From Melioribacteraceae bacterium (GTDB lineage Bacteria > Bacteroidota > Ignavibacteria > Ignavibacteriales > Melioribacteraceae), in contig BQMY01000128.1 in assembly GCA_022181065.1 (NCBI GenBank), positions 1-44,913 of the forward strand: a DNA stretch of 44,913 nt. Reading direction: 5' to 3'. Positions 4,733 through 41,100 of this stretch are shown in pieces (the stretch's first letter is position 1; every line of letters starts with the position of its first letter). The notes below the pieces were generated by a model. That model saw only the letters and a program-made list of their open reading frames with translations. It was not told the origin of the DNA and did no database searches. Made by a program: the position numbers and the translations under genes.

Positions 4733-6781
4733 ATGAGGATAGTATTAACTTTTCTTTTATTAGCAATAGTAATTTCTGGGCAGGATACAACGTATTGGCA
4801 GAACGGGTATTTTCACTATACAAATGGGACTGTTGTCAGTTTATCTGCTGACACGCATATTTTTACAACCAGCGTTGGGAAAGTACAGAAAACTTACGAC
4901 AACTTTAAATCGAGTTCAGATTTTTCTTCACATTACTGTGATTCATTTGATGCTTTAGTCTACGACAAATTCCTTTTATACGGTCATTCTTCTTACATAT
5001 ATCGACTCAACATCGAAACCGGTCAGGAAAAAAGATTGGGACAAGTACCAGCATGGCAATTCCTTTATTGCAATGACTCTCTTTTTTACACGCAATCATT
5101 GGAAAATGAAATTTACAGAAGCACCGATCAGGGAGAAAACTGGACATTTGTAAGAAACGCATCACTTTATCATCAATGGGCTGCAACTCCCGGTGGTGAG
5201 ATACTTCTTGTATCGTCAGATCATAATGTTTATTTATCCAATTTAGAATTTACTGATACAACTCTTTTAATTCAGTATTCAGGAGGATCATCTTTTGATT
5301 GCGATCCATATTTTACCGGCTCTGATACAATCATGTTCACCACCAGTAAGTACCTTTACAAATCGGTTGATGGCGGAAGTTCTTTCGAAACTACCGAATT
5401 TGAATCGTTTATTCAGCAGGGTGTAAAAAATGATATAAATGGAAACTTGTATATATTAACAGATGATAAACTACTCAAATCCATCGATAAAGGGGATAGT
5501 TGGTTCCCGATATTACATAAATATGGTTCTGGCGGTGGGTTTCATATATATGAAGATAAAATTAATGTTGCATTTGCGGATCATCAAAATGACGCCATGT
5601 ACCACGACCCCGATGTAAGCTCCCCGCAACATGATAATTATATGCCCCTGGCATTAGGGAACAAATGGTTTTACAGAGCTCTCGACAGGTTCAATCAATA
5701 TCGAGAAGTTGAAATTTACGATACTGTAACAATAAACTCGAACTTATACTATAAAAAATCGGATTTTCAATACCCGATGCGATATGAGAATAACCGGCTT
5801 CTCTACTATGCGAATGGCGCGGATTCGCTTTACATGGATTTTAACACTGTTCCCGGCCAACCAACCTGGTTCAGGTATTTTGAAGATTATTACACCGTGC
5901 GGGAGGGAGTTTTCGAGCAGTTCGACTCCAGCTGGTACAATAAAGGTCCTTATTATTCCGGAGGACTTTCGAGAGAGTGTGAATTATTCGCTCCCGATTT
6001 AGGTAAGGTATTTTCCAGTTCTTATGAAGCTTTCTGGCCAACAATTTATCTGGATGATTCTTTACTTGTTCAGGCAATTATAAAATCTCCTGACGGGGAC
6101 AAAAGTTATAATAGCATTCCAGCACCTCTTATCCATTCTCATATAGATGTGGATTATTACTCGGATTATCTGGTTACAAGAATAGACGTATCTCACAGTT
6201 ATTCAGGATCTCCAACGGCTGACAGTGTCATTTTTATTGACTCTGTCAAAATGTACTATTTTTTAACCGATGGAATAAATAATACCGAGACTATCTCAGT
6301 TACCGGGGAACGAATATTCGATTTAGAAAAATACGCGTTTAGTTGTCCGGTTGATACCTCACTTTTTTCGTGGGGTTATGAGTTAAAATGCTACTACCGG
6401 GCATGGACGAAGGGTATTATCCCGGTTGAAAAACGACATCCTGAATTGGGGTATGTAACAATTAACGCCAGTACCGTGAATCTGGAGAGTGAGGAGACAG
6501 CACTCAAATTCAGTCTTAAAAACAACTACCCAAATCCGTTTAACCCGTCAACGAAGATCAGTTATTCTTTGGCTAAATCATCTTTTGTTACTCTGGATGT
6601 GTTTAATATTCAGGGGGAGAAGGTTACGACAATCGTAAGTAAACAACAAGCATCCGGAGAGTACAATGTTAAATTTGATGGTTCCGACCTTGCGAGCGGA
6701 ATATATATCGCAAAATTGAGAGCAACTGATGATGGAAATGAAGTTTTCTCCAAATCAATCAAGATGATTTTAATGAAATAG
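4733..6781 (+). CDS. T9SS-secreted BNR/propeller protein (paralogue 1)
   Basis: A 682-residue exported protein. Residues 1-17 form a signal peptide ending near ISGQ. The first about 270 residues contain Asp-box/BNR-like turns (STDQGENW near 130, SVDGGSSF near 212, SIDKGDSW near 247), typical of beta-propeller proteins. The middle, about 280-590, is a beta-rich domain I do not recognise. The last about 85 residues are a T9SS type A sorting domain: NYPNPFNPSTKISYSLAKSS, then GEYNVKFDGSDLASGIYIAKL, ending KMILMK. By family knowledge the tail directs passage through the type IX translocon and attachment to the cell surface. Eight bases separate it from a second gene of exactly the same length and layout. 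An AGAGGT shine-dalgarno precedes the start. Ligand and function are unknown. Confidence 0.88.
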   Translation: MRIVLTFLLLAIVISGQDTTYWQNGYFHYTNGTVVSLSADTHIFTTSVGKVQKTYDNFKSSSDFSSHYCDSFDALVYDKFLLYGHSSYIYRLNIETGQEKRLGQVPAWQFLYCNDSLFYTQSLENEIYRSTDQGENWTFVRNASLYHQWAATPGGEILLVSSDHNVYLSNLEFTDTTLLIQYSGGSSFDCDPYFTGSDTIMFTTSKYLYKSVDGGSSFETTEFESFIQQGVKNDINGNLYILTDDKLLKSIDKGDSWFPILHKYGSGGGFHIYEDKINVAFADHQNDAMYHDPDVSSPQHDNYMPLALGNKWFYRALDRFNQYREVEIYDTVTINSNLYYKKSDFQYPMRYENNRLLYYANGADSLYMDFNTVPGQPTWFRYFEDYYTVREGVFEQFDSSWYNKGPYYSGGLSRECELFAPDLGKVFSSSYEAFWPTIYLDDSLLVQAIIKSPDGDKSYNSIPAPLIHSHIDVDYYSDYLVTRIDVSHSYSGSPTADSVIFIDSVKMYYFLTDGINNTETISVTGERIFDLEKYAFSCPVDTSLFSWGYELKCYYRAWTKGIIPVEKRHPELGYVTINASTVNLESEETALKFSLKNNYPNPFNPSTKISYSLAKSSFVTLDVFNIQGEKVTTIVSKQQASGEYNVKFDGSDLASGIYIAKLRATDDGNEVFSKSIKMILMK

Positions 6782-6789
6782 GGGGCGTA

Positions 6790-8838
6790 ATGAAGGTCAT
6801 TTACTTATTTCTGTTACTATCTGCGCTTGTTTTCGGGCAGAGTAATTTGTACTGGCAGAACGGATATTTCCCGAATCATGTTAAGTCTGTACGCAGCGTA
6901 TCCAAAACAAAACATTATTATATTCGAGATGGTAAACGTATTCAATACACCGAAGATAACTTTAAAACATCTCAGGATGTAGGGTCTTTTCACGTTAAAA
7001 ATTGGACTGCTTTGTTCTACCATGATTACGCAATCTATCTTACGGCTGCTAACACTCTGGCGCGCTACAACTTTAGCACCAGTTTAAATGATGATTTAGG
7101 TCAATCTACAGCGCATATTTTTCTTAAATACAGCAATAATTTACTCTATTATCAGGATGAAGAGGGTGATATTTATCATAGTGAGGACCTCGGAGAAACA
7201 TGGCTTTATGTAAAAAATGCCACCAAAATAGAATCCTGGGGTACCAGCGGAAAAGGGTATATCTACTGTTCCGATAATAATAAAGATATATACAGGGTTG
7301 ACTCATTATTTGGCGGGAAAACAGTGATGCTATCAAACTCTGCTTTAGGGTATAGGCAGCGATTTTATACCGCAGGAGCGGATACGGTATGTTTTTTCGC
7401 GGGTTCAAAATTATATCGCTCATTCGATAGTGGAAGTACTTTTATAGTTGAAGATCTGGGGAGACCTGACCATAGCTTAGAAGCTGATTCGGAAGGGAAT
7501 TTGTATGTCCTGCTTAATAACCGGTTACTAAAATCATCCGATAAAGGGGATAACTGGGAGGAGATATTATTTAAACGAGATAATTACGGGTTCTTTTACA
7601 TTAACGGGAATACCATCCATTTGAGATATGGAAATGATAACCGGACCCTCTATCTTGATCCTGAAGTTAATTGTCCCGATTACGAAAATTTTTTCCCGCT
7701 CGAAGTCGGGAATAAGTGGTTATATCAATCTTTATCAGGGTCAAACAGACTTAAAACAGTTGAAGTTTACGATTCTGTACGAATTGGGGATAAAAAGTAT
7801 TTCCGGATTTCGGATTTTAATTCGCCGCTAAGGTATGAGGATAACAAGTTACTATTTTACCGGAGTGAAGCAGATCATATTTACATCGATTTTAATATCC
7901 CGTCGGGGCATAGAGTTCTTTACAGACTCAAAGGTCTGGATTTTTCAATGTGGGAAGGTTCATATGAGTTGTTTGATTCTACATTGTACTATAAGGGACC
8001 GTTTTTCGCTACCGGAATTGAACGGATGGGGACAATTTACTCGCCCGGAATCGGTAAAATATTCAATGCAGATTATGAAATATTCGGGGGTACAATCCTG
8101 GAAAACTACGATACTGTTCTTGTTCAAGCGGTTATTCATTCCGACGGAGGAATTGTAGAATATAACGATGTACCTGCGCCTCAATTTTCCGGAATTGTTG
8201 ATGTTTCTTATCAGTATTATGGCTTCAAAATTATTACAGATGTTGTTCACGAGATGCCGGGTATGATTACTATTGAACGTAACATGATAGATACTGTCAG
8301 GATGGATTATATCTACGCAAAAGGAAGTGATACTCAGTCGCCAGGACACGTATTCGGGAAGAAACAGTACGGGTTGAAGTATTTGTTTACCGACCCGCTT
8401 CAGGAGGATCTTATAAATGATGGCTACCTCTTGAAATTTCGGTTTACTGCATGGACGGAGGGGATTATCCCAGTTTATAGTCAGTATCCACCGAAGGGTT
8501 ATATCACTACTGATGGAATCACTGTCAGCATGGAAGATGAAAATTTAGAGGAAAAAATCTTTCAGTATAATTTGAAAAACAACTACCCAAATCCGTTTAA
8601 CCCGTCAACGAAGATCAATTATTCTTTGGCTAAATCATCTTTTGTTACTCTGGATGTGTATAATATTCAGGGGGAGAGGGTGTCATCAATTGTTAAGAAA
8701 CAACAGGTAGCGGGGGAGTACAATGTTAAATTTGACGGTTCCGACCTCGCGAGTGGAGTATATATAGCGAAATTGAGAGCAACTTCGGGTGGAAATGAAG
8801 TTTTCACAAAATCAATCAAAATGATATTGATGAAATAA
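6790..8838 (+). CDS. T9SS-secreted BNR/propeller protein (paralogue 2)
   Basis: A 682-residue tandem paralogue of the preceding gene. After a signal peptide (residues 1-17, ending VFGQ) both mature proteins open with a YWQNGYF stretch. Asp-box-like turns recur (SEDLGETW near 131, SFDSGSTF near 211, SSDKGDNW near 247), and the middle domain is recognisably related (VGNKWLYQSL and YYKGPF have counterparts in the first copy). The C-terminal sorting domain is almost identical: over 103 bases at its start (8575-8677 against 6518-6620) only two differences are seen, while the bodies have diverged strongly. GGGGG precedes the ATG 8 bases after the upstream stop, so the two are probably co-transcribed. 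Its stop is immediately followed by the stop of pyrC on the other strand, with no spacer and no visible terminator. Confidence 0.88.
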   Translation: MKVIYLFLLLSALVFGQSNLYWQNGYFPNHVKSVRSVSKTKHYYIRDGKRIQYTEDNFKTSQDVGSFHVKNWTALFYHDYAIYLTAANTLARYNFSTSLNDDLGQSTAHIFLKYSNNLLYYQDEEGDIYHSEDLGETWLYVKNATKIESWGTSGKGYIYCSDNNKDIYRVDSLFGGKTVMLSNSALGYRQRFYTAGADTVCFFAGSKLYRSFDSGSTFIVEDLGRPDHSLEADSEGNLYVLLNNRLLKSSDKGDNWEEILFKRDNYGFFYINGNTIHLRYGNDNRTLYLDPEVNCPDYENFFPLEVGNKWLYQSLSGSNRLKTVEVYDSVRIGDKKYFRISDFNSPLRYEDNKLLFYRSEADHIYIDFNIPSGHRVLYRLKGLDFSMWEGSYELFDSTLYYKGPFFATGIERMGTIYSPGIGKIFNADYEIFGGTILENYDTVLVQAVIHSDGGIVEYNDVPAPQFSGIVDVSYQYYGFKIITDVVHEMPGMITIERNMIDTVRMDYIYAKGSDTQSPGHVFGKKQYGLKYLFTDPLQEDLINDGYLLKFRFTAWTEGIIPVYSQYPPKGYITTDGITVSMEDENLEEKIFQYNLKNNYPNPFNPSTKINYSLAKSSFVTLDVYNIQGERVSSIVKKQQVAGEYNVKFDGSDLASGVYIAKLRATSGGNEVFTKSIKMILMK

Positions 8839-14375: not shown

Positions 14376-17300
14376 CTATTTCATTAAAATCATTTTGGAT
14401 ATCTGATTATAGTTTTTCCCTGATTCACCTTCCGCGTTAAATCTCAATAAATAAATGCCGCTACTTAACCTGCTTGCGTTGAAAGTCCTGTTATAAACTC
14501 CTGCGGACATCTGACCTTGAGCGAGCGTGGCAATCCGATTTCCAAGGATATCGAAAACAGTTAGTTCTACATTAGAACTTTCCGGTATATCAAACTGAAC
14601 TGTAGTAGCAGGGTTAAAGGGATTCGGATAATTGCTGTAAAGTTTAAACTCAGTAGGCAATGTACCTTCAGTAAGGGAAGTGATTTCGCCGGTTACAACC
14701 TTAAAAGTGATATTGCCGTCAAAATCGTTCGGCTGGATTTCAATAAACTCCCCTGATTCAAGAAGTATCTCCTCGCCACTAATGATCATAAAGATAGTCA
14801 TATCTGAATCAAATTCTGCATTAATCAGGAATGGGTTAACCGAATTGGAAACTCGTAAGTTAAAATAACTGACCGGCGAGTCATTGTAGTTTCTCAATTC
14901 TTTATTAACAGCGATACCCAGTGGATTTATAGTGCGAGCATCAAAAACACCTGCTGGTGGCACAGGAGGTAATTGAGATTCACCAATATTTCTGTCAATT
15001 TCAACAGTTGCGTTCTCGGCAAAACCAAACTGGAAATTTGTGGAATATGTATTTTCTTGTGTAACTGCTAAATCTACTACAAGCGGATTTATAAGCTTTT
15101 CAACGGTAACAGGCTGAGATGTGCTTCCGGCAGAAATTGTGCCTGCCTGCGAGGCTTTTATCCAGTAACCTTTTCCGGGGAGAAGAGTTTCAGAAACCTG
15201 ATAACCGTTATTGAATCCGTAAAATGATGATTCCAGTAATCCCGAGCTACTTTCCTGAAGAGCGTTTACCGAAATACTGCTATGAAATGGTCCAATAATG
15301 TTCCACCCTTCGTTCAGGTTTGCAATGTAAGATTCTACGCTACCCGAAAGTTGAATGCTTTCATCATCTGTAAGATTTAGCCAGTATCCGGTTCCTGTTG
15401 ACGGTGTGGTTTCAGAGATATAACCGTTATCAAAACTAAAGGCAGTTCCTTCAAGGTTACTGAAGAGATCGCTGAATGTAGCGCCATTCTGATCGGTGGG
15501 AATTGAAATTAAATTCCATCCGGAGTTGTAACTTAAACTATTTACAGCGGTATTACCATCAATTGTTCCTTTCCAGACGCCCCTGTCAACGGTCGATACC
15601 CAAAATGTTGAGTTACCTTTTTTCAATTCGCTAAACTGAATATTTTCCGGAAAATTAAAAGTTGATTCTTCCCACATTTCGCCACTTAGATGATATACTT
15701 CCAGATTAGTATGATTATAAAGATACAATATGCCGTTATGTTCATAAAAAACTGAATTTAGATAGGAACTAAAATCTTCAGGCAGTCCTTCTGATACATC
15801 AGTCCAGGCAGTTTCAGATGCATCCGACATGAAAATACCCTGATTAGAAATAGCGTAAACTTTATTGTTAAAAGAGTATCTCGTGCCAAGATAAGAGAAT
15901 TCGGGTAAACCATCCTCGAATAATACCCATGAAGAACCGCCATTAGTGCTTCTGAATAGTCCTTCAATTGTTCTAACAAAAATTTGCGAGTCATTAACCG
16001 TCATATTATAAGCAGGTGCACTTACGCCACCCTGCGAAGGTAAATTTGCCGAGATATTACTCCAGCTTGAGCCGCCATTTGTCGATTTAAAAATTCCACC
16101 TGCTTCCCACACGGGAGAGAGGTGAGTTCTTGGCCGGATTTTAAGAAATGTGGCATAAATATCGCCGTTGTGTTCACTCAACTGATTACAATGTTCGTAA
16201 TAATAGCTACCGAAACCGGAGTGTGAAGTGCTCCAGGATTCTCCGCCGTCAGTACTTTTATAAATACCTGAGCCGGAAGTGGAATAAATTGCATCATCTG
16301 TTACGAGCATTCTTCCCGACGTAAAACTGTTTTCAATATCAAACCAGGATTGGCCGGAATCAGTTGTTTTAAATATTGTACCGGTGTTAACGAAATACGC
16401 ATTATTATCATCTTTCGGATAAACATAGCCGCTCATAGCGATAATATCATCTGTTATATCAACAGTAGATTGATTATCGGGATTGAATTCAAGAATTTTG
16501 TTATCGCCCGCAACTAGTATAGCATCATCTTTTATGTAATAACAACTGTATTCGGGAAAATCTGTTGCAGGAATCCATGTATCTCCGGAAAGTTTGTATA
16601 AACCTTCCTCAAAACCTGTTAGCGCATAAAAGTGTGAATTATAAACAATCAGGTCACCTACATAAACTGTACCAAATTGAGTTGAAAGACCATCACTATA
16701 TGGCTCCCAGTTAAAACCGCCATCTGAGGTTCTGAATATTCCATTACTGGTGGCTACATATACCATACCTTCATACTCCAGCATTTTATATGTATAGCTT
16801 GGATCCGGAATGCCCTGGGCGAATTCCCAATTCTCGCCATTATCTGAAGTTACATATATACCCTGCGGGAGGGGATATACTGATGTTGTGCATCCAAGGA
16901 TTAAAGTTGTCCCGGTTTTATACAAACTCCTGATATCAATCAGTTTTTGAACTGTCGGTTCGCCGAAAAGTATGGTATTAGCGTATTGGCTTACAACCGG
17001 GTGTTCCCAGGTACTTCCATGATCGGAAGAAACGAGCAAGGAGTCGTCAACTGTGATATATAAGTTGCCGTTGGTGTAATCAATGACTGATACTTGATTT
17101 CCCTCCATTATTGATTCCCAGTTGGAGCCTTTGTCAGTAGAGCGATAGATGTTTGCGTAATCGTAATAGAATAACGCGTCTTCCGTTGTAAAAAAGCCGT
17201 AAAAATTAGATAGATGGGCTCTGTTCTGCCATTCGCCATCAACATGCTCAAAAAGCGCTCCTCTATTTGAAGCAACAAAAGTTGAATTAGAGCTGTAACC

Positions 17301-17399
17301 TATATTTCGAAATGAGCCGCCAACAGGTCCGGCGGTTTGTTCAAATTGCCCAAATATTGTTGAAACAATAAAAAAAAGAAGTAGTAGTACCCTGATCAT
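14376..17399 (-). CDS. Large T9SS-secreted BNR-repeat (VPS10/sialidase-like propeller) protein
   Basis: A 1007-residue exported protein. The signal peptide is residues 1-17 (MIRVLLLLFFIVSTIFG). Residues about 20-610 carry many Asp-box motifs of the form S-x-D-x-G-x-S/T-W, for example STDKGSNW, SSDHGSTW, TSDGGFNW, TTDSGQSW, STDGGESW and STNGGSSW. These are typical of multi-bladed propellers like those of the VPS10/sortilin and photosynthesis-factor-like families. Two related modules follow, opening GWNLIS (about 627) and GWNIIG (about 697) and each ending in a GYW motif. The last about 85 residues are a T9SS type A sorting tail (NYPNPFNPATTVQFDIPESS, ending SKMILMK). Probably a surface-attached or released binding protein rather than an enzyme, since no catalytic motif is evident. 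A terminator follows directly; the upstream gap to the next minus gene is about 120 bases. Confidence 0.88.
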   Translation of the reverse strand: MIRVLLLLFFIVSTIFGQFEQTAGPVGGSFRNIGYSSNSTFVASNRGALFEHVDGEWQNRAHLSNFYGFFTTEDALFYYDYANIYRSTDKGSNWESIMEGNQVSVIDYTNGNLYITVDDSLLVSSDHGSTWEHPVVSQYANTILFGEPTVQKLIDIRSLYKTGTTLILGCTTSVYPLPQGIYVTSDNGENWEFAQGIPDPSYTYKMLEYEGMVYVATSNGIFRTSDGGFNWEPYSDGLSTQFGTVYVGDLIVYNSHFYALTGFEEGLYKLSGDTWIPATDFPEYSCYYIKDDAILVAGDNKILEFNPDNQSTVDITDDIIAMSGYVYPKDDNNAYFVNTGTIFKTTDSGQSWFDIENSFTSGRMLVTDDAIYSTSGSGIYKSTDGGESWSTSHSGFGSYYYEHCNQLSEHNGDIYATFLKIRPRTHLSPVWEAGGIFKSTNGGSSWSNISANLPSQGGVSAPAYNMTVNDSQIFVRTIEGLFRSTNGGSSWVLFEDGLPEFSYLGTRYSFNNKVYAISNQGIFMSDASETAWTDVSEGLPEDFSSYLNSVFYEHNGILYLYNHTNLEVYHLSGEMWEESTFNFPENIQFSELKKGNSTFWVSTVDRGVWKGTIDGNTAVNSLSYNSGWNLISIPTDQNGATFSDLFSNLEGTAFSFDNGYISETTPSTGTGYWLNLTDDESIQLSGSVESYIANLNEGWNIIGPFHSSISVNALQESSSGLLESSFYGFNNGYQVSETLLPGKGYWIKASQAGTISAGSTSQPVTVEKLINPLVVDLAVTQENTYSTNFQFGFAENATVEIDRNIGESQLPPVPPAGVFDARTINPLGIAVNKELRNYNDSPVSYFNLRVSNSVNPFLINAEFDSDMTIFMIISGEEILLESGEFIEIQPNDFDGNITFKVVTGEITSLTEGTLPTEFKLYSNYPNPFNPATTVQFDIPESSNVELTVFDILGNRIATLAQGQMSAGVYNRTFNASRLSSGIYLLRFNAEGESGKNYNQISKMILMK

Positions 17400-18235: not shown

Positions 18236-18841
18236 ATGTCGGGTTTTAACGACAAAAAAATTAGTATTAAAAAAGCTGCCAAGAAGGTCTTTGCAAAGTT
18301 CGGTTATCAAAAAACAACACTTGAAGATATTGCCAATTTAATTGGTATAAAGAAAAATTCACTTTACTATTATTTTGAGAGTAAAGAGGACCTATTCAAT
18401 CAGATTATGGTTGAGACAAGTGAATATTTATATAATCATTTGGTGACTGAACTTGGGAAAGTTGTTACAAACAAAGAGAAGCTACGTTTTTTTATCCTAT
18501 ATCATACAAACAAGATCAATGTTGATGATGCGATGAATGAGGCCACTATCAGCGCTATGGTTGAAATAGGGAGTATCGTTGAAGAATCTTACACCCATTT
18601 TATTGATAAATTCAAGGATGTTTGTCGCAAAATATTGGCTGAGGGTATAAAAACCGGTGAATTTAAAGAGGTAGATGCTAATGAAATATCTGAATTGATT
18701 TTTGAGACGATCAGAGGATATGAGTGCAAATTTTTGAAAAAACAAAATCATCTTGAAATGTTTTCAGAGATGGACAGAAATGAACTGAAAAATGATCTGA
18801 ATCAGTTCTATAAAATAGTGATAATGGCAATTACAAAATAA
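18236..18841 (+). CDS. TetR/AcrR-family transcriptional regulator
   Basis: A 201-residue regulator. Residues about 10-55 form the TetR DNA-binding domain, with the helix-turn-helix TTLEDIANLIGIKKNSLYYY and the following FESKEDLFNQI. The remainder is the all-helical ligand-binding domain, which is poorly conserved. AAGG six bases before the ATG is the ribosome site. It is the first gene of an RND efflux operon: its stop abuts the next gene's region with no spacer, so it probably represses its own operon until an efflux substrate binds. A palindrome just upstream is a possible operator. The inducer is unknown. Confidence 0.92.
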   Translation: MSGFNDKKISIKKAAKKVFAKFGYQKTTLEDIANLIGIKKNSLYYYFESKEDLFNQIMVETSEYLYNHLVTELGKVVTNKEKLRFFILYHTNKINVDDAMNEATISAMVEIGSIVEESYTHFIDKFKDVCRKILAEGIKTGEFKEVDANEISELIFETIRGYECKFLKKQNHLEMFSEMDRNELKNDLNQFYKIVIMAITK

Positions 18842-18859
18842 ATGATTAATAGGAGAATT

Positions 18860-20296
18860 ATGAAACAGAAAAGCAAATTGGGAATATTCCTTTGGGGGAT
18901 GGTACTAATATTGCTCACTAATCTTACAATCTCTGCGCAAACTGAGAAATATTCGATTGATGAAGCAATTAAACGTGCCCTTGAGAACAATCGTTCAATC
19001 AAAGTTAGTATGCTTGAAGTTGAAAAAGCCGAAGAAGCTGTTGATGAGGCATTCGGGTACGCGCTACCATCACTTGATCTGGAAGCTACTTTTTCACATC
19101 TGATTGAAAAACCAAAGACGGTTTTTCCTGATTTTGAATCTTTATTGACGGCTGCAAGTTACGGTATCTTGTTTGATGAAGGATTGATTCCTTATGATGA
19201 GGCAAAAATTCCGCCCGTGGAGAGTAAACTTCAATCATTCGCTCAGACAAACAATTTTGAAACTTCATTGCAGCTAACGCAGATTTTATTTAATTCAGCG
19301 GTTTTCAGAGGAATCGGGGCATCTCAAATCTATCTCAATCTTTCAAAAGAACAACTGAGAGATCAGATTGGCGCTGTTGTACTTGATGTTAAAAGAGCTT
19401 ACAACGGAGCGCTTTTAACCGGTGAATTAAAGGATATAACAAAAAGCAGCTATGAGAACGCTCTGGAAAACCTTTCAAATGTTAAGGCGCTTTATGAACA
19501 AGGTTTAGCTTCAGAGTATGAGTACCTTCAGGTGAAGGTACAGGTTGAAAATATCAAACCTGCAATAAAACAATTGGAGAACGCTTTTCAGGATGCCAAG
19601 GATGGACTGAAAATATTGATGGGCTTGCCGGTTGACAGCAAAATAGAACTTTCGGGATCACTCGATTATACGCCGAGGGTTGGTCAAAGGGTGAGTGAGC
19701 TTGTTGAACAAGGACTCGTTGGAAACGCTCAATTGAAAGTATTGAATACCAAGAGACTTGTAGATGAAGAGTTTATCGCTATCGATAAGGCAGATTACTG
19801 GCCTACAATCGCGGCTTTTGGCAATTATACTTATGCCGGTTCATCGGATGATCTGAGTTTTAATACATACAATTCTACTGCGGTTGGTTTGAGTTTCTCG
19901 CTGAACTTGTTTAAAGGTGGAAGAGTTTCAAGCAAAGTGCAACAATCCAAAATTGCGTTGAAGCAGACCGATGAGCAGCTTTCGGATTTGAAATCAGCCC
20001 TCAGGATGCAGATTGAATCGAAGTTCCGAGAGTTAAAGAAGGTAGAATCTGAAATCCAGGCGATGGAAGAAAACGTAAAATTGGCGGAACGTACATACAG
20101 CATTGCTGAAACCAGATACAAAGAAGGTACAGGTACCCAGTTGGAGATAAAAAACGCGGACATTGAACTTCGTTCAGCGAAAACTAACAGATTGCAATCA
20201 GTTCATCAATATAACGTGGCGCTTGACGAACTTGATAATCTGCTCGGCAAATTTGGCTCAGAGTATATGAATTTTGTTAAAATAGAAAATAAATAG
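18860..20296 (+). CDS. TolC-family outer-membrane efflux protein
   Basis: A 478-residue outer-membrane channel of a tripartite RND pump. The ATG at 18860 is preferred over one at 18842 because GGAG (18852-18855) sits at the right distance and it puts the signal peptide (KLGIFLWGMVLILLTNLTIS, ending AQ) at the N-terminus. Two outer-membrane efflux protein repeats are visible. Each contains long heptad-rich helices (for example LEVEKAEEAVDEAFGYALPS and VESEIQAMEENVKLAERTYS) and the beta segments FETSLQLTQILFN and AVGLSFSLNLFKGG. It joins the adaptor and pump encoded immediately downstream. Spacing is 10 bases to the adaptor ATG. Confidence 0.92.
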   Translation: MKQKSKLGIFLWGMVLILLTNLTISAQTEKYSIDEAIKRALENNRSIKVSMLEVEKAEEAVDEAFGYALPSLDLEATFSHLIEKPKTVFPDFESLLTAASYGILFDEGLIPYDEAKIPPVESKLQSFAQTNNFETSLQLTQILFNSAVFRGIGASQIYLNLSKEQLRDQIGAVVLDVKRAYNGALLTGELKDITKSSYENALENLSNVKALYEQGLASEYEYLQVKVQVENIKPAIKQLENAFQDAKDGLKILMGLPVDSKIELSGSLDYTPRVGQRVSELVEQGLVGNAQLKVLNTKRLVDEEFIAIDKADYWPTIAAFGNYTYAGSSDDLSFNTYNSTAVGLSFSLNLFKGGRVSSKVQQSKIALKQTDEQLSDLKSALRMQIESKFRELKKVESEIQAMEENVKLAERTYSIAETRYKEGTGTQLEIKNADIELRSAKTNRLQSVHQYNVALDELDNLLGKFGSEYMNFVKIENK

Positions 20297-20306
20297 GGAA
20301 TTGATC

Positions 20307-21344
20307 ATGAAATTAATAAAAGTATTGCTGGCAAACTTATTGTTGCTGTTGTTCACGAGTTTGATTTTTACTTCCTGTGCTGAGGAAGTAGAAGAAGCTA
20401 AGAGTATGGAGCAGCTTCAAGCTGAAAAAGGTATCCCTGTGGAAGTTGAAGCGGTTAAGGCTGTTAATTTTGTAAAATACCTTTCATACTTTGGTACTCT
20501 TGAGGGTTACAGACAATCAACGGTGGGGGCAATGACCGGTGGAAGAATTGAAAAAGTATCCATAAAAGCTGGCGATAGAGTCAAGAAAGATCAGGTAGTG
20601 ATTGAGTTCCCGGATGACTTGCCTTCTTCTCAGGTGGTTCAGGCAAAAGCAGCATTTGACATCGCGGAGAAAACTTATAACAGAATGAAAAAGCTGCTGG
20701 AAGCAGGAGAAACATCCCAGGCCAATTTTGATGGAGCTGAAACACAATATCTTGTCGCAAAACGTAATTATGAATCCGCAATGGAAGTGATGTATGTACA
20801 GGCTCCTTACGATGGCACTATCACAGGTGTGATGGTCAATAAAGGTGACGGAGTGAAAGCAGAAGCGCCTTTGTTCACAATCGCCAATCTTGCCAAAATG
20901 AAAGTAAAAGTTTGGGCAACAAGTAAGGAAATTGATAAAATCAGTAAAGGTAGCAACGCTAAAATCATTTATAATGGTAAGGAAGCTGCCGGTAAAGTTA
21001 CAGAAGTTGATTTAAGTATGAATCCCGGCAGACAGGCTTTTGGTGTAACTGTTGTATTTGAAAATAGTCTAAAATTACCGGCAGGTGTAACCGCTGATGT
21101 CCTGGTTCAGATATACAGTAATGACGATGCGATAGTAGTACCGAGAAACATAGTTCAATCAGATTCGAAGGGAAACTTCGTCTATGTTGAAATAGATGGT
21201 AAAAGTTTCAGGAAATATATCAAAACCGGCGAAGTTTATGATATTTCAATGGAAGTGTTCGAAGGTCTGGTTCCCGGTGACAAGCTGATTGTAAAAGGTG
21301 TCGAAAATGTATTAGACAGTTCCACTGTTAACGTAATCAAATAA
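20307..21344 (+). CDS. RND efflux periplasmic adaptor subunit (lipoprotein)
   Basis: A 345-residue HlyD/AcrA-type membrane fusion protein linking the pump to the TolC-like channel. The ATG at 20307 has AGGGAA six bases upstream; a TTG at 20301 lies too close to that site. The N-terminus ends in a lipobox-like FTSC, so Cys24 is probably lipidated. Visible parts: the first barrel-sandwich strand (RIEKVSIKAGDRVKKDQVVI), a short alpha-hairpin (AKAAFDIAEKTYNRMKKLLE), the second lipoyl half (VQAPYDGTITGVMVNKGDGV) and C-terminal beta-barrel and membrane-proximal domains. The short hairpin resembles that of RND, not ABC, adaptors. Ten bases separate its stop from the pump ATG. Confidence 0.92.
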   Translation: MKLIKVLLANLLLLLFTSLIFTSCAEEVEEAKSMEQLQAEKGIPVEVEAVKAVNFVKYLSYFGTLEGYRQSTVGAMTGGRIEKVSIKAGDRVKKDQVVIEFPDDLPSSQVVQAKAAFDIAEKTYNRMKKLLEAGETSQANFDGAETQYLVAKRNYESAMEVMYVQAPYDGTITGVMVNKGDGVKAEAPLFTIANLAKMKVKVWATSKEIDKISKGSNAKIIYNGKEAAGKVTEVDLSMNPGRQAFGVTVVFENSLKLPAGVTADVLVQIYSNDDAIVVPRNIVQSDSKGNFVYVEIDGKSFRKYIKTGEVYDISMEVFEGLVPGDKLIVKGVENVLDSSTVNVIK

Positions 21345-21353
21345 GGGGAAAGT

Positions 21354-24300
21354 ATGTTTTTAGCAAAATTATCGATTACCAGACCCGTATTGACTACGAT
21401 GGGAATTCTGGTGTTTCTGATCTTTGGTATTCTGGCTTATCTGAATATCAATCTTAATCAGATGCCTGATGTTGAAATTCCGGTGGTAAATATCACCACA
21501 ATATATCCGGGTGCTGGTCCGAAAGAAATTGAAACACTTATTACAAAAAGAATTGAAGACGTTATTACAACCGTTAGTGAGATTGATTATGTTGAATCAT
21601 ATTCACTTGATGGTGCGTCAATCATAGTAATGGCATTTCAGCTTAGTAAGGATGTCAACATCGCGACACAGGAAGTCAAGGATAAAGTTGACGCTATAAT
21701 CAATGATCTTCCGGATGATGCTGAATCGCCCAAAGTTGAGAAGTTTGATATCCGCGCCACACCTATTATGGATCTTGTACTAAGTGGAGACAGGGATCCG
21801 CGAGAGTTGTACGAGTTTGCGGATAAAAAACTTAAAGAGAGGTTTTCTCAGATCCAGGGTGTCGCGAGAGTCGATATCAATGGTGGTAGAGAACGTGAAA
21901 TAAGAGTTGAGATGGATAGCAGGGTAGTATATGAGAACAGAATCTCACTACCTCAGCTAATACAGATACTTCAGGCTCAAAACATGAATATCCCGGGTGG
22001 GTACTTCCAGATTGATAATCAGGAATTTACCGTCCGACTCGATGGCGAGTTCAACGATTTGAATACTATTTCCGAGCTGCAAATTCCTACCGCATTTGGT
22101 GATAAAAAGGTAGAACAATTCGCGAAAGTACTCGATAGCGGTAAGGATGTACGCCAGAGAACAACATATTTCAATCGTCCCACAGATCGCAAGGATGAGA
22201 ATGTTATTCAGCTTAGTATAGTAAAAAGCACTGAAGGTAACGTTGTTCGTATCGCGGATGCTGTAAGAAAAGCAATACCAGATATTCAAAAAATAATACC
22301 GAGCGGTGTTCAGCTTGAAATTATCAATGACAACGCCGATTTTACACGCGCTACGGTTGATGATACAATGAGTAATATAATTCTTGGTATAATTTTTACA
22401 TCAATTGTATTATTCATCTTTCTATTTAATATTCGTTCAACTCTGATCGTAGCGCTTACGATGCCTGTTTCCATTGTTTCAACATTTATGCTGCTGCAGG
22501 CTGCAGGATTAACACTAAACATCATGACTTTGATGGGACTTTCTGTTTCGGTGGGTGTACTCGTGGCGAACTCGGTCGTGGTACTGGAGAATATATTCCG
22601 GCACAAAGCTATGGGTGCTGATAACAAGGACGCTGCGCTTAAGGGTACTACAGAGGTAACGGTTGCGGTAATTGCTTCAACGCTGACAAACCTTGTTGTG
22701 TTTTTACCAATCGCCAACATGTCATCGATCGTTGGTATGTTCATGCGTGAACTTGCTCTCGCGGCTTCATTTGCAACAATATTTTCTTTGATATTTTCTT
22801 TTACACTTACACCAATGTTGGCATCCCTGATTCTTCCCAAGTCGGGGAAACGTAGTAAAATAGCAGAAAAAACTGATGCATTCTACAAAACCTGGGATGA
22901 GTTTTATAGAACGCTTCTAAGAATTTCCCTCAAAAGCAAATGGATAAATGTAACTCTGGTTACACTTTCAATATTTGTGTTGATCGTGGTTGTTGGTGTT
23001 TTCGGACCGCATCTTGGTTTTGAATTTATCCCGGCGCAGGATGATGGGAAAATACAGATTACCGCCGAATTGCCGCAAGGTTACAATCTGCATGAAACAG
23101 CCAAAGTTTTGGAGACTATTGAAAGCAGAGTGAAAACTTATCCCGAAGTTGTGCATGTGATTACAAATCTTGGTAAGATCTCCGACCTTAACACCGGTTC
23201 AAATGTGGCAAAAATGAGCATTATTCTTGTTGACGCAAACGAAAGGGAACGCGGTATTGCCGAAATTATCGGAGAGTTTGTAAAAGAACTTTCGGATGTG
23301 CCAAACGCCAAGATAATAGTTGACCGGAACCAGGAGCAGGGAGCCGGAGGAGCACCCGTGCAGTTTTATGTATTGGGTCAGGATGTTGAAGTACTCGATG
23401 ATTTGAAAGATCAGATCATGGATGAAATTCGTGATATACCCGGATTGATTAACCTTGACCAAAGTTCCCGAGAAGGTAAACCTGAAATAACAATCTATCC
23501 TGACAGAGTTAAACTTGCACAGGCAGGTATAACTACCCAGGAGCTTGCGTTAACAGTCAGAGCAGCGATTGAGGGAATCGAATCATCAAAGTATCGCGAG
23601 GATGGTGAAGAGTATGATATCACAGTAACTCTTACCGATGTATCGGTTGATTCTCCTGAGAAAGTAAAGAATATTCCGGTTGTGTCTTCCCGTGATTATT
23701 CAGTTTACAGGCTACAGCAGCTGGCTGATGTGGAGTTCACCAATGGTTCAACTACTATACTTCACAGGGATAAATTTACTTCAATAAAGTTTACAGGTAG
23801 TAATGCCCCCGGTTATGTTGTTGGCGATATAACAACGGAAATTGAAAAGAGAATTAGCGAAAACATTAACATGCCAACCGGATACCAGTTCAGTTGGGGT
23901 GGAAATAATGAAATGATGCAGGAGATGATTAATGACATGAGTTTTGCGTTTTTACTCGCGCTTGTACTTACATATATCCTGCTCGCGGCAATTCTGGAGA
24001 GTTTTATCCAGCCGATGTTTATTCTTTTCACAATACCCCTTGCGTTAATAGGTGTTATTATATCACTTTATGTGACCAATATCGCGTTGGGTATAACTTC
24101 AATGCTGGCAATTATCATGCTTATCGGTATTGTGGTCAACAACGCTATTCTGATGCTGGATTATACAAACCAGTTGGTGCGTGAAGAGGGTATGCGTGTT
24201 AAGGACGCGCTGATTGCCGCATGTCCGACGAAACTGAAACCGATTATTATGTCGTCACTTGCCATTATTCTTGGTATGCTACCGATGGCATTGGGAATAG

Positions 24301-24434
24301 GTGACGCGGGTAAAGAAATGAGAATGCCTCTTGGTGTTGTATCTATTGGCGGATTGGTAGTTTCAACAATTTTGACCTTGTTTCTCATTCCCGCATTGTA
24401 CAACTTAATTTATGATCGCAAACCCAAGGTATAA
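21354..24434 (+). CDS. RND transporter permease (AcrB/HAE-1-like) lacking the canonical proton-relay residues
   Basis: A 1026-residue inner-membrane pump with the standard duplicated layout: TM1, a periplasmic porter loop, TM2-6, a second TM7 and loop, then TM8-12. The start MFLAKLSITRPVLTTMGILV is typical and GGGGA precedes it. In AcrB the TM4 pair D407-D408 and TM10 K940 carry protons. Here the aligned TM4 segment GVLVANSVVVLENI has A405-N406, and the TM10 segment GIVVNNAILMLDY has N929 at the lysine position. Everything around these sites is well conserved and the gene is intact, so this looks like a natural subfamily rather than decay. Energy coupling may use other residues or another ion. 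Substrate is unknown. It is the fourth gene of the TetR-controlled operon. Confidence 0.93.
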   Translation: MFLAKLSITRPVLTTMGILVFLIFGILAYLNINLNQMPDVEIPVVNITTIYPGAGPKEIETLITKRIEDVITTVSEIDYVESYSLDGASIIVMAFQLSKDVNIATQEVKDKVDAIINDLPDDAESPKVEKFDIRATPIMDLVLSGDRDPRELYEFADKKLKERFSQIQGVARVDINGGREREIRVEMDSRVVYENRISLPQLIQILQAQNMNIPGGYFQIDNQEFTVRLDGEFNDLNTISELQIPTAFGDKKVEQFAKVLDSGKDVRQRTTYFNRPTDRKDENVIQLSIVKSTEGNVVRIADAVRKAIPDIQKIIPSGVQLEIINDNADFTRATVDDTMSNIILGIIFTSIVLFIFLFNIRSTLIVALTMPVSIVSTFMLLQAAGLTLNIMTLMGLSVSVGVLVANSVVVLENIFRHKAMGADNKDAALKGTTEVTVAVIASTLTNLVVFLPIANMSSIVGMFMRELALAASFATIFSLIFSFTLTPMLASLILPKSGKRSKIAEKTDAFYKTWDEFYRTLLRISLKSKWINVTLVTLSIFVLIVVVGVFGPHLGFEFIPAQDDGKIQITAELPQGYNLHETAKVLETIESRVKTYPEVVHVITNLGKISDLNTGSNVAKMSIILVDANERERGIAEIIGEFVKELSDVPNAKIIVDRNQEQGAGGAPVQFYVLGQDVEVLDDLKDQIMDEIRDIPGLINLDQSSREGKPEITIYPDRVKLAQAGITTQELALTVRAAIEGIESSKYREDGEEYDITVTLTDVSVDSPEKVKNIPVVSSRDYSVYRLQQLADVEFTNGSTTILHRDKFTSIKFTGSNAPGYVVGDITTEIEKRISENINMPTGYQFSWGGNNEMMQEMINDMSFAFLLALVLTYILLAAILESFIQPMFILFTIPLALIGVIISLYVTNIALGITSMLAIIMLIGIVVNNAILMLDYTNQLVREEGMRVKDALIAACPTKLKPIIMSSLAIILGMLPMALGIGDAGKEMRMPLGVVSIGGLVVSTILTLFLIPALYNLIYDRKPKV

Positions 24435-24441
24435 AACTTTA

Positions 24442-24468
24442 GTCCGGGGCAAAAGCTCCGGACATTTT
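24442..24468 (+). terminator. Hairpin after the RND gene, weak terminator candidate
   Basis: A 9-bp stem with one G-T pair (GTCCGGGGC against GCTCCGGAC) and an AAAA loop, followed by only four T residues. It could partly terminate the efflux transcript or reduce expression of the next gene. Confidence 0.5.
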
Positions 24469-24481
24469 GAAGGGAGGAGTT

Positions 24482-25258
24482 ATGAAAAATGTAACAAGTC
24501 TTGAATTTACAAGAGAAAATTTTGAAACACGTCTGGATGGGGAAGTTGTAATATTTCATATTAAGAAAAACGCCTTCAGTAATTTTACCGATCTTGAAGT
24601 ACGTGATGTGATCATTCCATGGTTGGAGGCTGTGGATAATTATGATCAAATAAAAGGAGTTCTTTTCCTCAATGATTACGGAGTGTTTGGTGAGAAAGAG
24701 TATCATACTTTTATCGAAGGAATGGCGGGCAAACTCGAAAAATCGGGTGATCATTTCAAGGTACCGAGATTTGAAAAATCAGAAATCCGGGCCATTGAAA
24801 TAAATTTGATAGTAACATATATTAAAAAGATTTTAGGTATGCGAAAACTTATAGCGTTTGCCATGCAAGGAGATGTGGTGACTCCATATTTTGGTGTCAG
24901 CCTTGCAGCCGATTTGCGCTACGGTACACCGAAGACAAACTTTGCTTTATCGCATATAAAATATGGGCTTCACCCGACAGGCGCACTACCATTTTTTCTA
25001 CCACGTTATATAGGTATTGGCAGATCAGTAGAATATTTGCTGAAAGGGGGTAAGATTGATTCGGCTGAATCATTGAATCTGGGAATCCTGAATAAAGTTA
25101 TACCGGATGATGTTTTCAGGGATGAAGTAATCAGGGAGTTTAAATCAATCTGCAAGCTGGATTTAGGTGTTATAAAGAGTACAAAAGAACTGATCTACAG
25201 TTTTCAGATGCAATTCGACAAGTTCCTCGAAAAAGAATCTCATTTTATATATCATTAA
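24482..25258 (+). CDS. Enoyl-CoA hydratase/isomerase (crotonase)-fold protein, catalytic Glu residues absent
   Basis: A 258-residue protein of the crotonase superfamily. The ATG at 24482 is set by a strong GGGAGG five bases upstream. The fold is recognisable from the IKGVLFLNDYGVF strand, the ADLRYGTPKTNFALSHIKYG segment and the C-terminal helices (GRSVEYLLKGGKIDSAESLN, GILNKVIPDD). When the ADLR and NF landmarks are aligned with typical hydratases, the first catalytic glutamate position is G138 and the second is H158. Hydration of enoyl-CoA by the usual mechanism is therefore unlikely. It may be another crotonase-family reaction, or a binding protein. It follows the RND pump by 47 bases with only a weak hairpin between, so it may belong to the efflux operon. 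Confidence 0.78.
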   Translation: MKNVTSLEFTRENFETRLDGEVVIFHIKKNAFSNFTDLEVRDVIIPWLEAVDNYDQIKGVLFLNDYGVFGEKEYHTFIEGMAGKLEKSGDHFKVPRFEKSEIRAIEINLIVTYIKKILGMRKLIAFAMQGDVVTPYFGVSLAADLRYGTPKTNFALSHIKYGLHPTGALPFFLPRYIGIGRSVEYLLKGGKIDSAESLNLGILNKVIPDDVFRDEVIREFKSICKLDLGVIKSTKELIYSFQMQFDKFLEKESHFIYH

Positions 25259-37483: not shown

Positions 37484-38116
37484 TTAAACAAATCCTTTTT
37501 TGATTGCTTCCGCGACAGCTTCAGCCTGTGAATGAACATGGAGTTTTTTGTAGATGTTTTTAATGTGAAATCTTACAGTATCAGGTGTGATGTTTAAAGT
37601 AAGCGCAATTGCGTAGTATGTTTTTCCTTTTATCAACTCTTTAAGTATCTGGTTTTCTCTTTCCGAGAGGGGAGAGTCTCCCGGTGTAAGTTTTTTACTG
37701 TTATGGAAAAATCCGGTAACTTTTCTCGCAATGTGTGAACTCATCGGCGCGCCACCCTCAAAAGCCTCCTGAACCGCTTCTATCAGTTTTTGTGGATGTG
37801 TCTTTTTGATAAGATATCCGCAGGCACCCGCACAAAGAGCATCGAATATTTTATCATTTTCCTCGTAGATAGTGAGCATTAAAATATTTACTTCCGGTAA
37901 TATTTGCTTTACCTGTTTAACACCCTCTATTCCATTCATTCCTGGGAGTTTAATATCCATAAGAATTACGTCAGGATTACAACTCGTTACATTTTCAAGC
38001 ATATCTTCACAATTGGTATATGAACCAACACAATCAAACTCTTCATGAGAGTTAAAAAGTGAAACCAACGAGTGGTTAATAATCTCATTATCTTCGACTA
38101 CAACGATATTTATCAT
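37484..38116 (-). CDS. NarL/LuxR-family response regulator
   Basis: A 210-residue two-component response regulator. The receiver domain, residues 1-120, has the acidic pair in VVVEDN, phospho-acceptor D54 in VILMDIKLPG, the Thr in MLTIY (about 82) and the Lys in YLIKKTHP (about 105). The LuxR-type helix-turn-helix, about 145-207, contains LSERENQILKELIKGKTYYA and DTVRFHIKNIYKKLHVHS. It starts 8 bases after the stop of the sensor kinase at 38125 and is surely its partner. When phosphorylated it would bind DNA as a dimer. The target genes cannot be read from here. Confidence 0.93.
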   Translation of the reverse strand: MINIVVVEDNEIINHSLVSLFNSHEEFDCVGSYTNCEDMLENVTSCNPDVILMDIKLPGMNGIEGVKQVKQILPEVNILMLTIYEENDKIFDALCAGACGYLIKKTHPQKLIEAVQEAFEGGAPMSSHIARKVTGFFHNSKKLTPGDSPLSERENQILKELIKGKTYYAIALTLNITPDTVRFHIKNIYKKLHVHSQAEAVAEAIKKGFV

Positions 38117-38124
38117 ATATCTGC

Positions 38125-41100
38125 CTAAATTTTTCCTTTAAAATCTACAGTGGTTCCTTTTCCGGCAACGGATTCAATCTTTAATTCGCCTTTTATATTT
38201 TTTGCTCTGTCACGCATATTATTAAGACCATTACCGCGGCTGCTTGTAGCGGGATCAAAACCCTTTCCATTATCGGTTAGCGTTACCCTGATGTTCTTAC
38301 CTTCAATATATGTTTCAATAATTATTTCTGTACACTCTGAATACTTAACGCTATTGGATAAAGCTTCCTTGAATATCAAATAGAGGTTTTTTCGCTTTTC
38401 CATAGGAAGCCTTATCTTTTCAAGAAGATTAAGGTTCCTGATATCAATTATTATATTTGAACGAGAAAGAAGGTCTTCATAAGTATCCCGAAGTTTCAGA
38501 AAGAGTTCATAGAGGGTGTCGCGCTTGGGATTTACAAGCCAAATAATATCGTCCATGCTGTCAATAAGAGAACGTGCAATCTGTCCGATATTTCTAACCA
38601 TCTTGAGTTCGGAGTTACCCTCACTACCAGTATGATACACTATATCACTCAACATTGAAATTTCGGTAAGTTTTGTACCTACATCATCGTGCAGATCCGC
38701 GGCAATTCGAGTTCTGAGTCTCTCAATTTCAAGAATGCTTTTTACACGATAGCTTATAACAAAGTAGGTGAGACCGGAAATTGATAGAGCAATTATTGCA
38801 ATGAACCACCATGTTTCCCAGAATGGGGGAGTAATTACTACGGCAATGGAAGTTCCTGTTTCATTCCATACTTCATCATTGTTTGAACCGATTACCCGAA
38901 AAATATAGTCTCCCGGATCAAGGTTAGTGTACATAACAAAATTGCGTTTGCCGGCATAATTCCAATCTGAATCAAAGTTTTCCAGCTTATATCTGAATTC
39001 ATTTTCCGCTGGAAATGAGTAATCGAGTGACGCAAATTCAAAACTGAAAACGTCCTGATCATGTGAGAGCTCAATTCTTTCCGCGAGGTTTACCGATTTT
39101 GTTAGCGGACCATCAGGGGATATGGTAGCCGACTTATTATGTATTTTCAGATCAGTGATCACAATTTGGGGGATATGCTCATTTTCCTTAATCCTGTCGG
39201 GGAAAAAGCTGTTTAGCCCGTTTATTCCGCCAAAATATATTTTACCATAATTATCTTTTGTGTATGCTCCACCACTGAACTGATTGCTCTGAAGTCCGTC
39301 GCCAACCGTATAGTTTTTTAGTGAGTTATCAGTCGGATCAAATTCGAATATCCCCATGTTGGAACTAAACCAAAGATGATTTGATTCATCTGAAAGTATC
39401 CCGTAAACAACTATGTTATAAAGATTTAATTCCGGGGTAAGATTTTTATACCTGTTATCTTTTTTATCAAGAATAGTCATTCCGCCATTTGATCCAACCC
39501 AGACGGTATCTCCAGTGATGTACAGGCTCCAGATGTAGTTGGTACTCAACCCCGAATCGCCATATTTGCCGCCGCTCTTGAAATATGTGAATTGCTCTGT
39601 TTTGGTGTTGAGCATATTCAAACCGTTGTAGGTACCAATCCACAATAAACCTTCATTATCAAATGAGAGGGTAGTTACATAATCATGACTTATAGTATTC
39701 TCATCGGAAGGATTATTAATATATTTTGTAAAGAGTTCCCGTTGTTTGTCGAATTTATTGATACCGTGCAGGGTTCCCAGCCAGAGAAATCCATTTTCGT
39801 CTTCCGTAATCGCGATAACTTTGTTTTCACTTAAACTTTGGGGATTACCGGGATCATTCAGGTAATGATAAAACCTGCCATTAGAATATTTATTTAAACC
39901 GCCACCATTCGTACCAATCCAAACAGTACCTTCAGAATCCTCAAAAATAGCCCTGATATAATTGTTACTGATACTAAACTTATTTTTATCGTCATGCCTA
40001 AAAAGATCAAATTTACCTGTGCCGGGATGAATCCTGTTAAGACCGGCGCGAGTACCTACCCATAAATAATTTTTACTGTCAACGAGAATAGCATGGATCT
40101 CATTATTTATCAGGCTGTTGTCATCATAAGGTTTATTCTGGAGTAAATTGAATTTTTCTTTTCCCGGATCGTATTTATTTATCCCGATATCAGTTCCTAT
40201 CCACAATATACCCGCGCGATCTTCATAAATGGACCAAACATAATCGGAGCTGAGACTGAACCGGTTTTTCAGATTATGTCTGTAAGCGCTGAAATTCTGA
40301 TCCTCATCCATTAAATTAAGACCACCGCCGAGTGTCCCTACCCAAAAGTTATTTTGAGAATCCTCGAACAGGCACCAGATATTGTTATAGCTCAAAGATT
40401 TCTTTTTAGTTGGATCGTGGCGATATGAGTAAAATTTTTTATTCTCCGGATCAAAAGTTTGTAATCCTTCCAGTGTTCCTACCCAAAGCTGATCTTTACT
40501 ATCCTGATAAATCTTGAAAATAGTATTTTGAGAAAAATCAACCTTGCCTTCATCTTTGATAAAATGACGCTCAAAAATATCCTCATCATGGATGTAGCGA
40601 TTTATGCCTCTATCGGTACCGAGCCATACTCTGTTTTGTGAATCCTCAAATATGGTCCAGACATGGTTTTCAATGAGTGCGGAATCATCATTAAAATCAG
40701 CCATATACCTTTTGAATTTTCCGGTAGATCTTTCCAGCTTATTCAAACCGTTATTTGTTCCTACCCAAAAATTGCCAAAGGAATCTTCAAAAATTTCCGA
40801 GATATAATTATTGCTTAGTGTGGTTGAATCTTCAGGGGAATGGAGATATCTTTGAAATGTGTTGGTTTCGGCGATAAAACAGTTCAGACCATTATCTGTA
40901 CCAATCCAAAGTTTATTATCAGAATCGAGAAAGAGTTTGAATATCCTGTTACCGCTCAAAGAAGTTGAATCGCCTGGAATCGGTTTGAATACAGTAAAAT
41001 TATAGCCGTCATATTTATTAAGTCCATCATTGGTTCCAAACCACATAAAACCAAGGTGATCCTGGATTATAGAAAAAGTAGTACTTTCAGATAGACCATC

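Follow-up and report, generated by a model that had tools for sequence, protein, structure and literature searches.

How a tripartite exporter could be energised when its permease carries none of the charged residues of the proton relay is the question raised by a locus of a Melioribacteraceae bacterium (GenBank assembly GCA_022181065.1, contig BQMY01000128.1, positions 1 to 44,913 of the forward strand; this whole stretch of 44,913 nucleotides is referred to here as the window). All RND transporters have been said to keep a central acidic residue (2021 review), and in AcrB of Escherichia coli the substitutions D407N, D408N, K940A and R971A are each reported, in the available part of the source, to give an inactive pump (PMC4359379). 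The window encodes, at 21354-24434 on the plus strand, an RND permease in which the charged proton relay has been replaced, and which belongs to a family of tripartite exporters that keeps the three-part machine without the acids of the proton switch, so that the energy source becomes a testable question.

Relay residues of the permease

The reading frame at 21354-24434 is open and of full length (1026 amino acids), and its product is, by sequence, an ACR_tran-type RND permease, matching PF00873 at 779.3 bits against a cut-off of 28 over residues 4-1019. Like the AcrB/MdtB-type HAE-1 pumps, it has a full-length ACR_tran, 12-TM RND sequence and is accompanied by TolC and adaptor partners; identity is 22% to AcrB and 26% to MdtB, the latter being its best solved match both by sequence and by fold search. 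In that fold search, made with a model predicted from nine sequences (the window protein and eight relatives; mean pLDDT 58.8), the best Foldseek matches were RND pumps with MdtB first, a result that adds little to the sequence match.

Unlike AcrB, the permease has replacements at D407, D408, K940, R971 and T978. When it is aligned with E. coli AcrB (NC_000913, MG1655), D407 and D408 in TM4 correspond to A405 and N406 (codons at 22566-22571), E414 to E412 (22587-22589), K940 and N941 in TM10 to N929 and N930 (24138-24143, with N929 at 24138-24140), and R971 and T978 in TM11 to K960 and S967, which bound the codons at 24231-24254. The TM4 register is the same in HMMER alignments to the solved MdtB and 8yr0 (AdeG), and of the GX3DX6E motif G401 and E412 are retained in the AcrB alignment while the Asp is gone. 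An earlier reading, made from the letters of the window and here called the sequence-only reading, had placed A405-N406 at the aspartate pair and N929 at the TM10 lysine, and both placements are exact; the alternative that it had raised itself, an Asp pair displaced within TM4, falls away, as residues 390-411 contain neither Asp nor Glu. The observation reaches beyond that reading, because the places of R971 and T978 differ too.

Because the residues that define the HAE-1 relay are replaced (A405-N406 in place of D407-D408 or the Asp of GX3DX6E; N929, K960 and S967 in place of K940, R971 and T978) and the NCBIfam subfamily cut-offs are missed (TIGR00915, 456.3 against 940.35 bits; NF033617, 735.7 against 1250 bits), the permease is not filed as an HAE-1 proton/drug antiporter, though its periplasmic part may still work like one. 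It also falls below the cut-off for the HME (CusA/CzcA) metal permeases (TIGR00914, 427.8 against 701.45 bits), with which it shares the RND fold family and a replaced K940 (E or Q in the paralogues L001 and L003), but which, unlike the window permease, keep the TM4 Asp.

The clade and its gene set

The change is shared by a clade of related permeases. A contig scan with the permease protein, which finds close relatives only, gave eight relatives that are 56-67% identical, in records labelled Melioribacteraceae, Ignavibacterium, Ignavibacteria, Bacteroidetes or bacterium, some of them the same assemblies as in the genome search; in each of the eight, TM4 reads A-N or S-N and TM10 N-N. Among 58 related genomes, 20 were found to encode a protein of the clade, 53-67% identical to the window's own (itself one of the 20), and the next matches in these genomes are only 33-36% identical, the ten of them that were read having D-D and K-N. 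When 395 genomes of the phylum were searched with a profile, at most two candidates being scored per genome and matches being listed from the best score down, 22 matches at 1452-1885 bits were followed, among the matches listed, by a gap to 853 bits. In all 22, residue 405 is A, S or T, residue 406 is N and TM10 carries N-N; the matches come from the window's family (11), another family of the same order (3), another family of the same class (6) and one family of another class (2), which amounts, among the matches listed, to four families and two classes. The 58-genome and 395-genome searches together place the clade in at least 30 distinct genomes, and since 30 distinct genomes and eight records share the change, an error of sequencing or alignment is ruled out. 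Of the 34 clade reading frames 32 are complete, the other two (889 and 993 amino acids) being cut at contig ends.

Residues were counted in 120 sequences, namely 137 less 17 repeats (identical over residues 101-900), with 34 in the clade and 86 outside it. The outside set, 60 members of which were picked for spread from the genome-search matches, comes from a single phylum apart from AcrB, MdtB, MdtC and CusA of E. coli, the last of them truncated where its stretch ends, and for this reason the Asp found at AcrB position 407 in 86/86 outside sequences is no census of RND proteins. In the clade, the same position holds Ala in 25, Ser in seven and Thr in two. Position 408 is Asn in all 34, against D70/N9/A4/G3 outside, and 940 is Asn in all 34 (as is 941), against K64/N13/E4/Q3/M1 and one gap. 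At 971 the clade has K33/R1 and at 978 S28/A6, where all 85 outside sequences with a residue have Arg and Thr, respectively, with one gap at each. A clade sharing Ala or Thr then Asn in TM4 and Asn in TM10, for which the sequence-only reading had proposed to look, thus exists. Loss of D407 is the rarity, whereas loss of K940 is ordinary (seen in 21 of the 85 outside sequences that are not gapped at this position); the claim of a departure from the textbook mechanism holds for its aspartate half, which has no counterpart among the 86, and its lysine half carries little weight because that loss is common outside the clade.

As far as the available text of each source goes, D408 has been described as less conserved than D407 and the basic residue of TM10 as not absolutely essential (2017 review, PMC5719797), and in a survey of Burkholderia GX3DX6E was present in all 254 sequences, with four HAE1-assigned sequences lacking the full D407-D408 and K940 missing from a group of unknown function (PMC2891726). 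In the available text of the open-licence literature searched (subscription papers lie outside this scope), no acid-less bacterial RND pump was named. For a suspected parallel with Borrelia BesB, the text available on that protein gave nothing on its relay residues.

Six positions are invariant in all 34 clade members: N406, N446, N929, N930, T349 and T873. N446 (TM5, AcrB L449; codon at 22689-22691) is matched by Asn in 2/86 outside sequences. E412 is Glu in 34/34, and because it is so in 85/86 outside as well, it is no new gain. For the wider membrane domain, acids were counted in the TM core columns of 11 of the 12 helices, TM7 being excluded from the acid and TM-identity analyses as it aligns poorly and CusA being omitted from both (n=85); the AcrB TM boundaries behind these columns, and the pocket positions used further on, are assumed ones. 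One acid, at AcrB 469, is present in 33/34 clade members and none in the remaining one, against three to six in 75/85 outside sequences and one in 10/85. In the permease this sole acid is E466 (AcrB Q469; codon at 22749-22751), near the periplasmic end of TM6; the position is E31/D2/A1 in the clade, the Ala being in L067, and Glu in 38/85 outside.

In two further columns Asp is frequent outside the clade, with Asp-Asp pumps such as L068, L069, L072, L073 and L113 as examples, and Asn is the rule within it: AcrB 343 in TM2 is Asp in 55/85 outside sequences and Asn in 34/34 of the clade, and AcrB 449 in TM5 is Asp in 29/86 outside and Asn in 34/34. The length of the switch-loop stretch was considered as a further clade feature and set aside; it is 32 residues in 34/34, but two outside sequences have the same length and the outside range of 24-43 spans it.

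A quick maximum-likelihood tree was made from 75 of the 120 sequences (18/34 clade, 57/86 outside), with near-copies removed by hand and the trait columns excluded. In this 75-sequence tree, which carries long-branch warnings and for which the root was not inferred, the clade forms one branch with support 100. The rest of its larger branch, within which the order is not settled, is all Asp-Asp and, except for L101 (Met), all Lys. Single-Asp, lysine-less pumps of the same phylum (the paralogue L004, and L130, L138, L139, L141-L144 and L150; nine of the 86 outside sequences) resemble the permease in having N at 408 and N at 940 (D-N in TM4 with N-N, N-D or N-S in TM10), but unlike it they keep D407 and fall across the drawn root from the clade. 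Descent of the clade from such pumps by a further step of decay is unsupported, since the clade lies on the Asp-Asp branch of this quick tree with its long-branch warnings.

Upstream of the permease, on the same strand, lie a TetR-type regulator as first gene of the set (18236-18841; PF00440, 56.4 bits, cut-off 24), a TolC-type outer-membrane channel protein (18842-20296; PF02321, 177.6 bits, cut-off 22) and a periplasmic adaptor or membrane fusion protein (20301-21344; TIGR01730, 165.5 bits, cut-off 94.9); the profile matches bear out the claim that all three are present and intact. In 20 clade loci (11-19 kb), each with a single RND gene, the adaptor gene immediately precedes the permease gene in 19, the 20th stretch stopping at a contig end, while a TolC gene adjoins the permease in 19 (15 upstream, 4 downstream), so that the genes of a tripartite exporter stand together in the window and in 19/20 clade loci. 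A homologue of the regulator is found upstream in 10/20. Because adaptor and TolC genes are kept beside the permease in 19/20 loci, export is still its likely task, and nothing in the gene context suggests decay.

A crotonase-like gene (24467-25258, plus strand; PF00378, 51.6 bits, cut-off 27) begins 33 bases downstream of the permease and is likely to belong to its operon. A crotonase homologue lies 3' of the permease in 9/20 clade loci besides the window (L076-L080, L082, L085, L086 and L088), and this neighbour may point to an acyl or lipid-like substrate. In L088 it follows a TolC gene; elsewhere it comes at once after the permease.

Readings of the energy source

Judged on its residues, the permease should be unable to operate the textbook proton relay, because no carboxylate or lysine is left at the relay and the AcrB single mutants are inactive. 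The sequence-only reading went on to state that the pump must use other residues, another ion, or a passive or assisted mode; its starting point, the loss of the textbook relay, is what sequence evidence indicates, while the three options are inseparable by sequence, with sodium weakened by the genome comparisons given below and a lean towards passive or substrate-driven export. In our judgement the chances are even that the exporters of the clade run without an ionisable residue at the RND energy site, being either substrate-powered without ion coupling or provided with a neutral Asn/Ser/Thr ion site. Either form, if true, would break the stated rule of a central carboxylate in every RND transporter.

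Built on the observed residues, their conservation, their single tree branch and the conserved gene set, the reading that we tentatively favour, with somewhat less than even confidence, is that of a TolC-adaptor-RND exporter lineage with its charged relay replaced and with substrate-driven or passive export. A neutral polar cluster (Ala, Ser or Thr at 405, N406, N446, N929 and N930, with K960 below) stands where the charged relay was, an exchange that is most simply taken to have happened once; AcrB-type proton antiport at TM4/TM10 would be gone, and substrate binding and release would carry the trimer through its cycle. The Asn cluster would then latch the two TM repeats together by hydrogen bonds, and some compound, taken up in the periplasm or from the inner membrane's outer leaflet, would leave through TolC by facilitated or gradient-driven export. 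If export without ion coupling is true, RND pumps would have a periplasmic cycle that is separable from their membrane engine, and the clade, a natural lineage without the relay residues in four families of two classes (by descent or by transfer), allows a direct question to be put: does the relay power transport, or does it only set its direction?

Substrate-driven or passive export is consistent with a relay that has neither acid nor lysine, with a TM core of one acid against the three to six of most outside pumps, and with the adaptor and TolC genes kept in 19/20 loci. What favours it is a membrane domain that has been kept less strictly than that of Asp pumps: when pairs are matched for identity in the periplasmic part, TM identity is lower in the clade in 5/6 bins (66.9 vs 74.0 at 50-55%) and in 10/11 helices, TM8 being the exception. 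This comparison is a lean and no test, as the pairs share history and are not independent. A precedent comes from RND relatives in which at least one of the two ion motifs is missing. In the available part of one source, PTCHD1 is described as having neither GxxxDD nor GxxxD/E and NPC1 as keeping GxxxD/E only, with NPC1 carrying cholesterol along its gradient and the same proposed for PTCHD1 (PMC9917202). These proteins are a works-like lead only, compared by description and sharing with the permease the lack of the TM4 motif; unlike it, they are sterol proteins of eukaryotes and have neither TolC nor adaptor. Against this reading, N406, N446, N929, N930, T349 and T873 are invariant, although a simple conduit would have no need of them; the order is the opposite in the bin of highest identity (clade TM 89.9 vs outside 86.1; 13 and 17 non-independent pairs); the deep-pocket columns are looser in the clade, not tighter (38.0 vs 46.9); and a passive-only carrier would gain little from a three-part machine. 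A tighter pocket would have suggested a single substrate, and given the same two figures, from a region of uncertain alignment, that idea is unsupported.

Proton coupling could instead have moved, either to the pair of E412 and K960, at the end of TM4/TM11 that faces the cytoplasm, or to E466, which lies towards the periplasm in TM6; this displaced-site reading is on the unlikely side in its own right and ranks close behind substrate-driven or passive export. A lysine can release a proton more readily than the usual arginine, and the change at R971 is clade-specific (Lys in 33/34, against Arg in 85/85 outside); AcrB R971 is reported to interact with E414 and N415 in the part of PMC8277102 available, E412 is kept in 34/34, and invariant polar residues still surround the old site. 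However, E466 is Ala in L067 and Glu in 38/85 outside sequences, one clade member has Arg at 960, and Asp pumps conserve their TM domain more tightly. That the protein no longer transports and has been retained as a sensor or scaffold, a reading for which the missing relay and the inactivity reported for AcrB D407N speak (PMC4359379, available part), seems improbable given the adaptor and TolC genes beside it in 19/20 loci and reading frames of full length in 32/34. Less probable still is that the permease works only in a trimer shared with an Asp-bearing RND protein from another locus. MdtB works with MdtC, and the window's genome does encode six other RND proteins, each of which keeps Asp at 407, but these paralogues are only 23-29% identical to the permease and each of the 20 clade loci has one RND gene.

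Coupling to Na+ or some other ion, for which uncharged Asn, Ser or Thr side chains at the former relay would be the ligands, is held to be unlikely, and a little less so than a transport-dead protein. The invariant Asn set, together with the clade-specific Thr in TM2 and TM8 (T349 and T873), indicates that something specific is kept at the old relay, and one sodium-driven RND pump is mentioned in the available text of a review (PMC8277102), although in human Dispatched, according to the accessible portion of PMC9917202, Na+ is bound through aspartates. Genomes were compared for NqrA or RnfC over cut-off. In the first set, 19/20 clade-positive and 18/38 clade-negative genomes carry one (p 0.0004, ignoring kinship), an association that favours sodium, as does that within the order's second family (4/4 vs 3/15). 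Within the window's own family it does not hold (15/16 vs 14/18; p 0.34, again ignoring kinship), and in a second genome set the counts are 4/10 and 3/30 (p 0.05, on the same footing). Six clade-positive genomes of this second set, from another family and 98-100% complete, have neither Nqr nor Rnf, and a sodium pump of the Nqr or Rnf kind is therefore not needed. Kinship may explain both the presence of the clade and that of Nqr/Rnf, and the sodium reading gains little from the comparison.

Other genes in the window

Three large reading frames at 4733-6781, 6790-8838 and 14376-17399, the first two adjacent and both of 682 amino acids, end in tails with NYPNPFNP, which resemble type IX secretion sorting signals. 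At 37484-41208, a reading frame of 1027 amino acids, in which WFGT/WIGT-type stretches recur and the end is kinase-like, lies beside a response-regulator-like frame of 210 amino acids, and the two presumably form a two-component pair.
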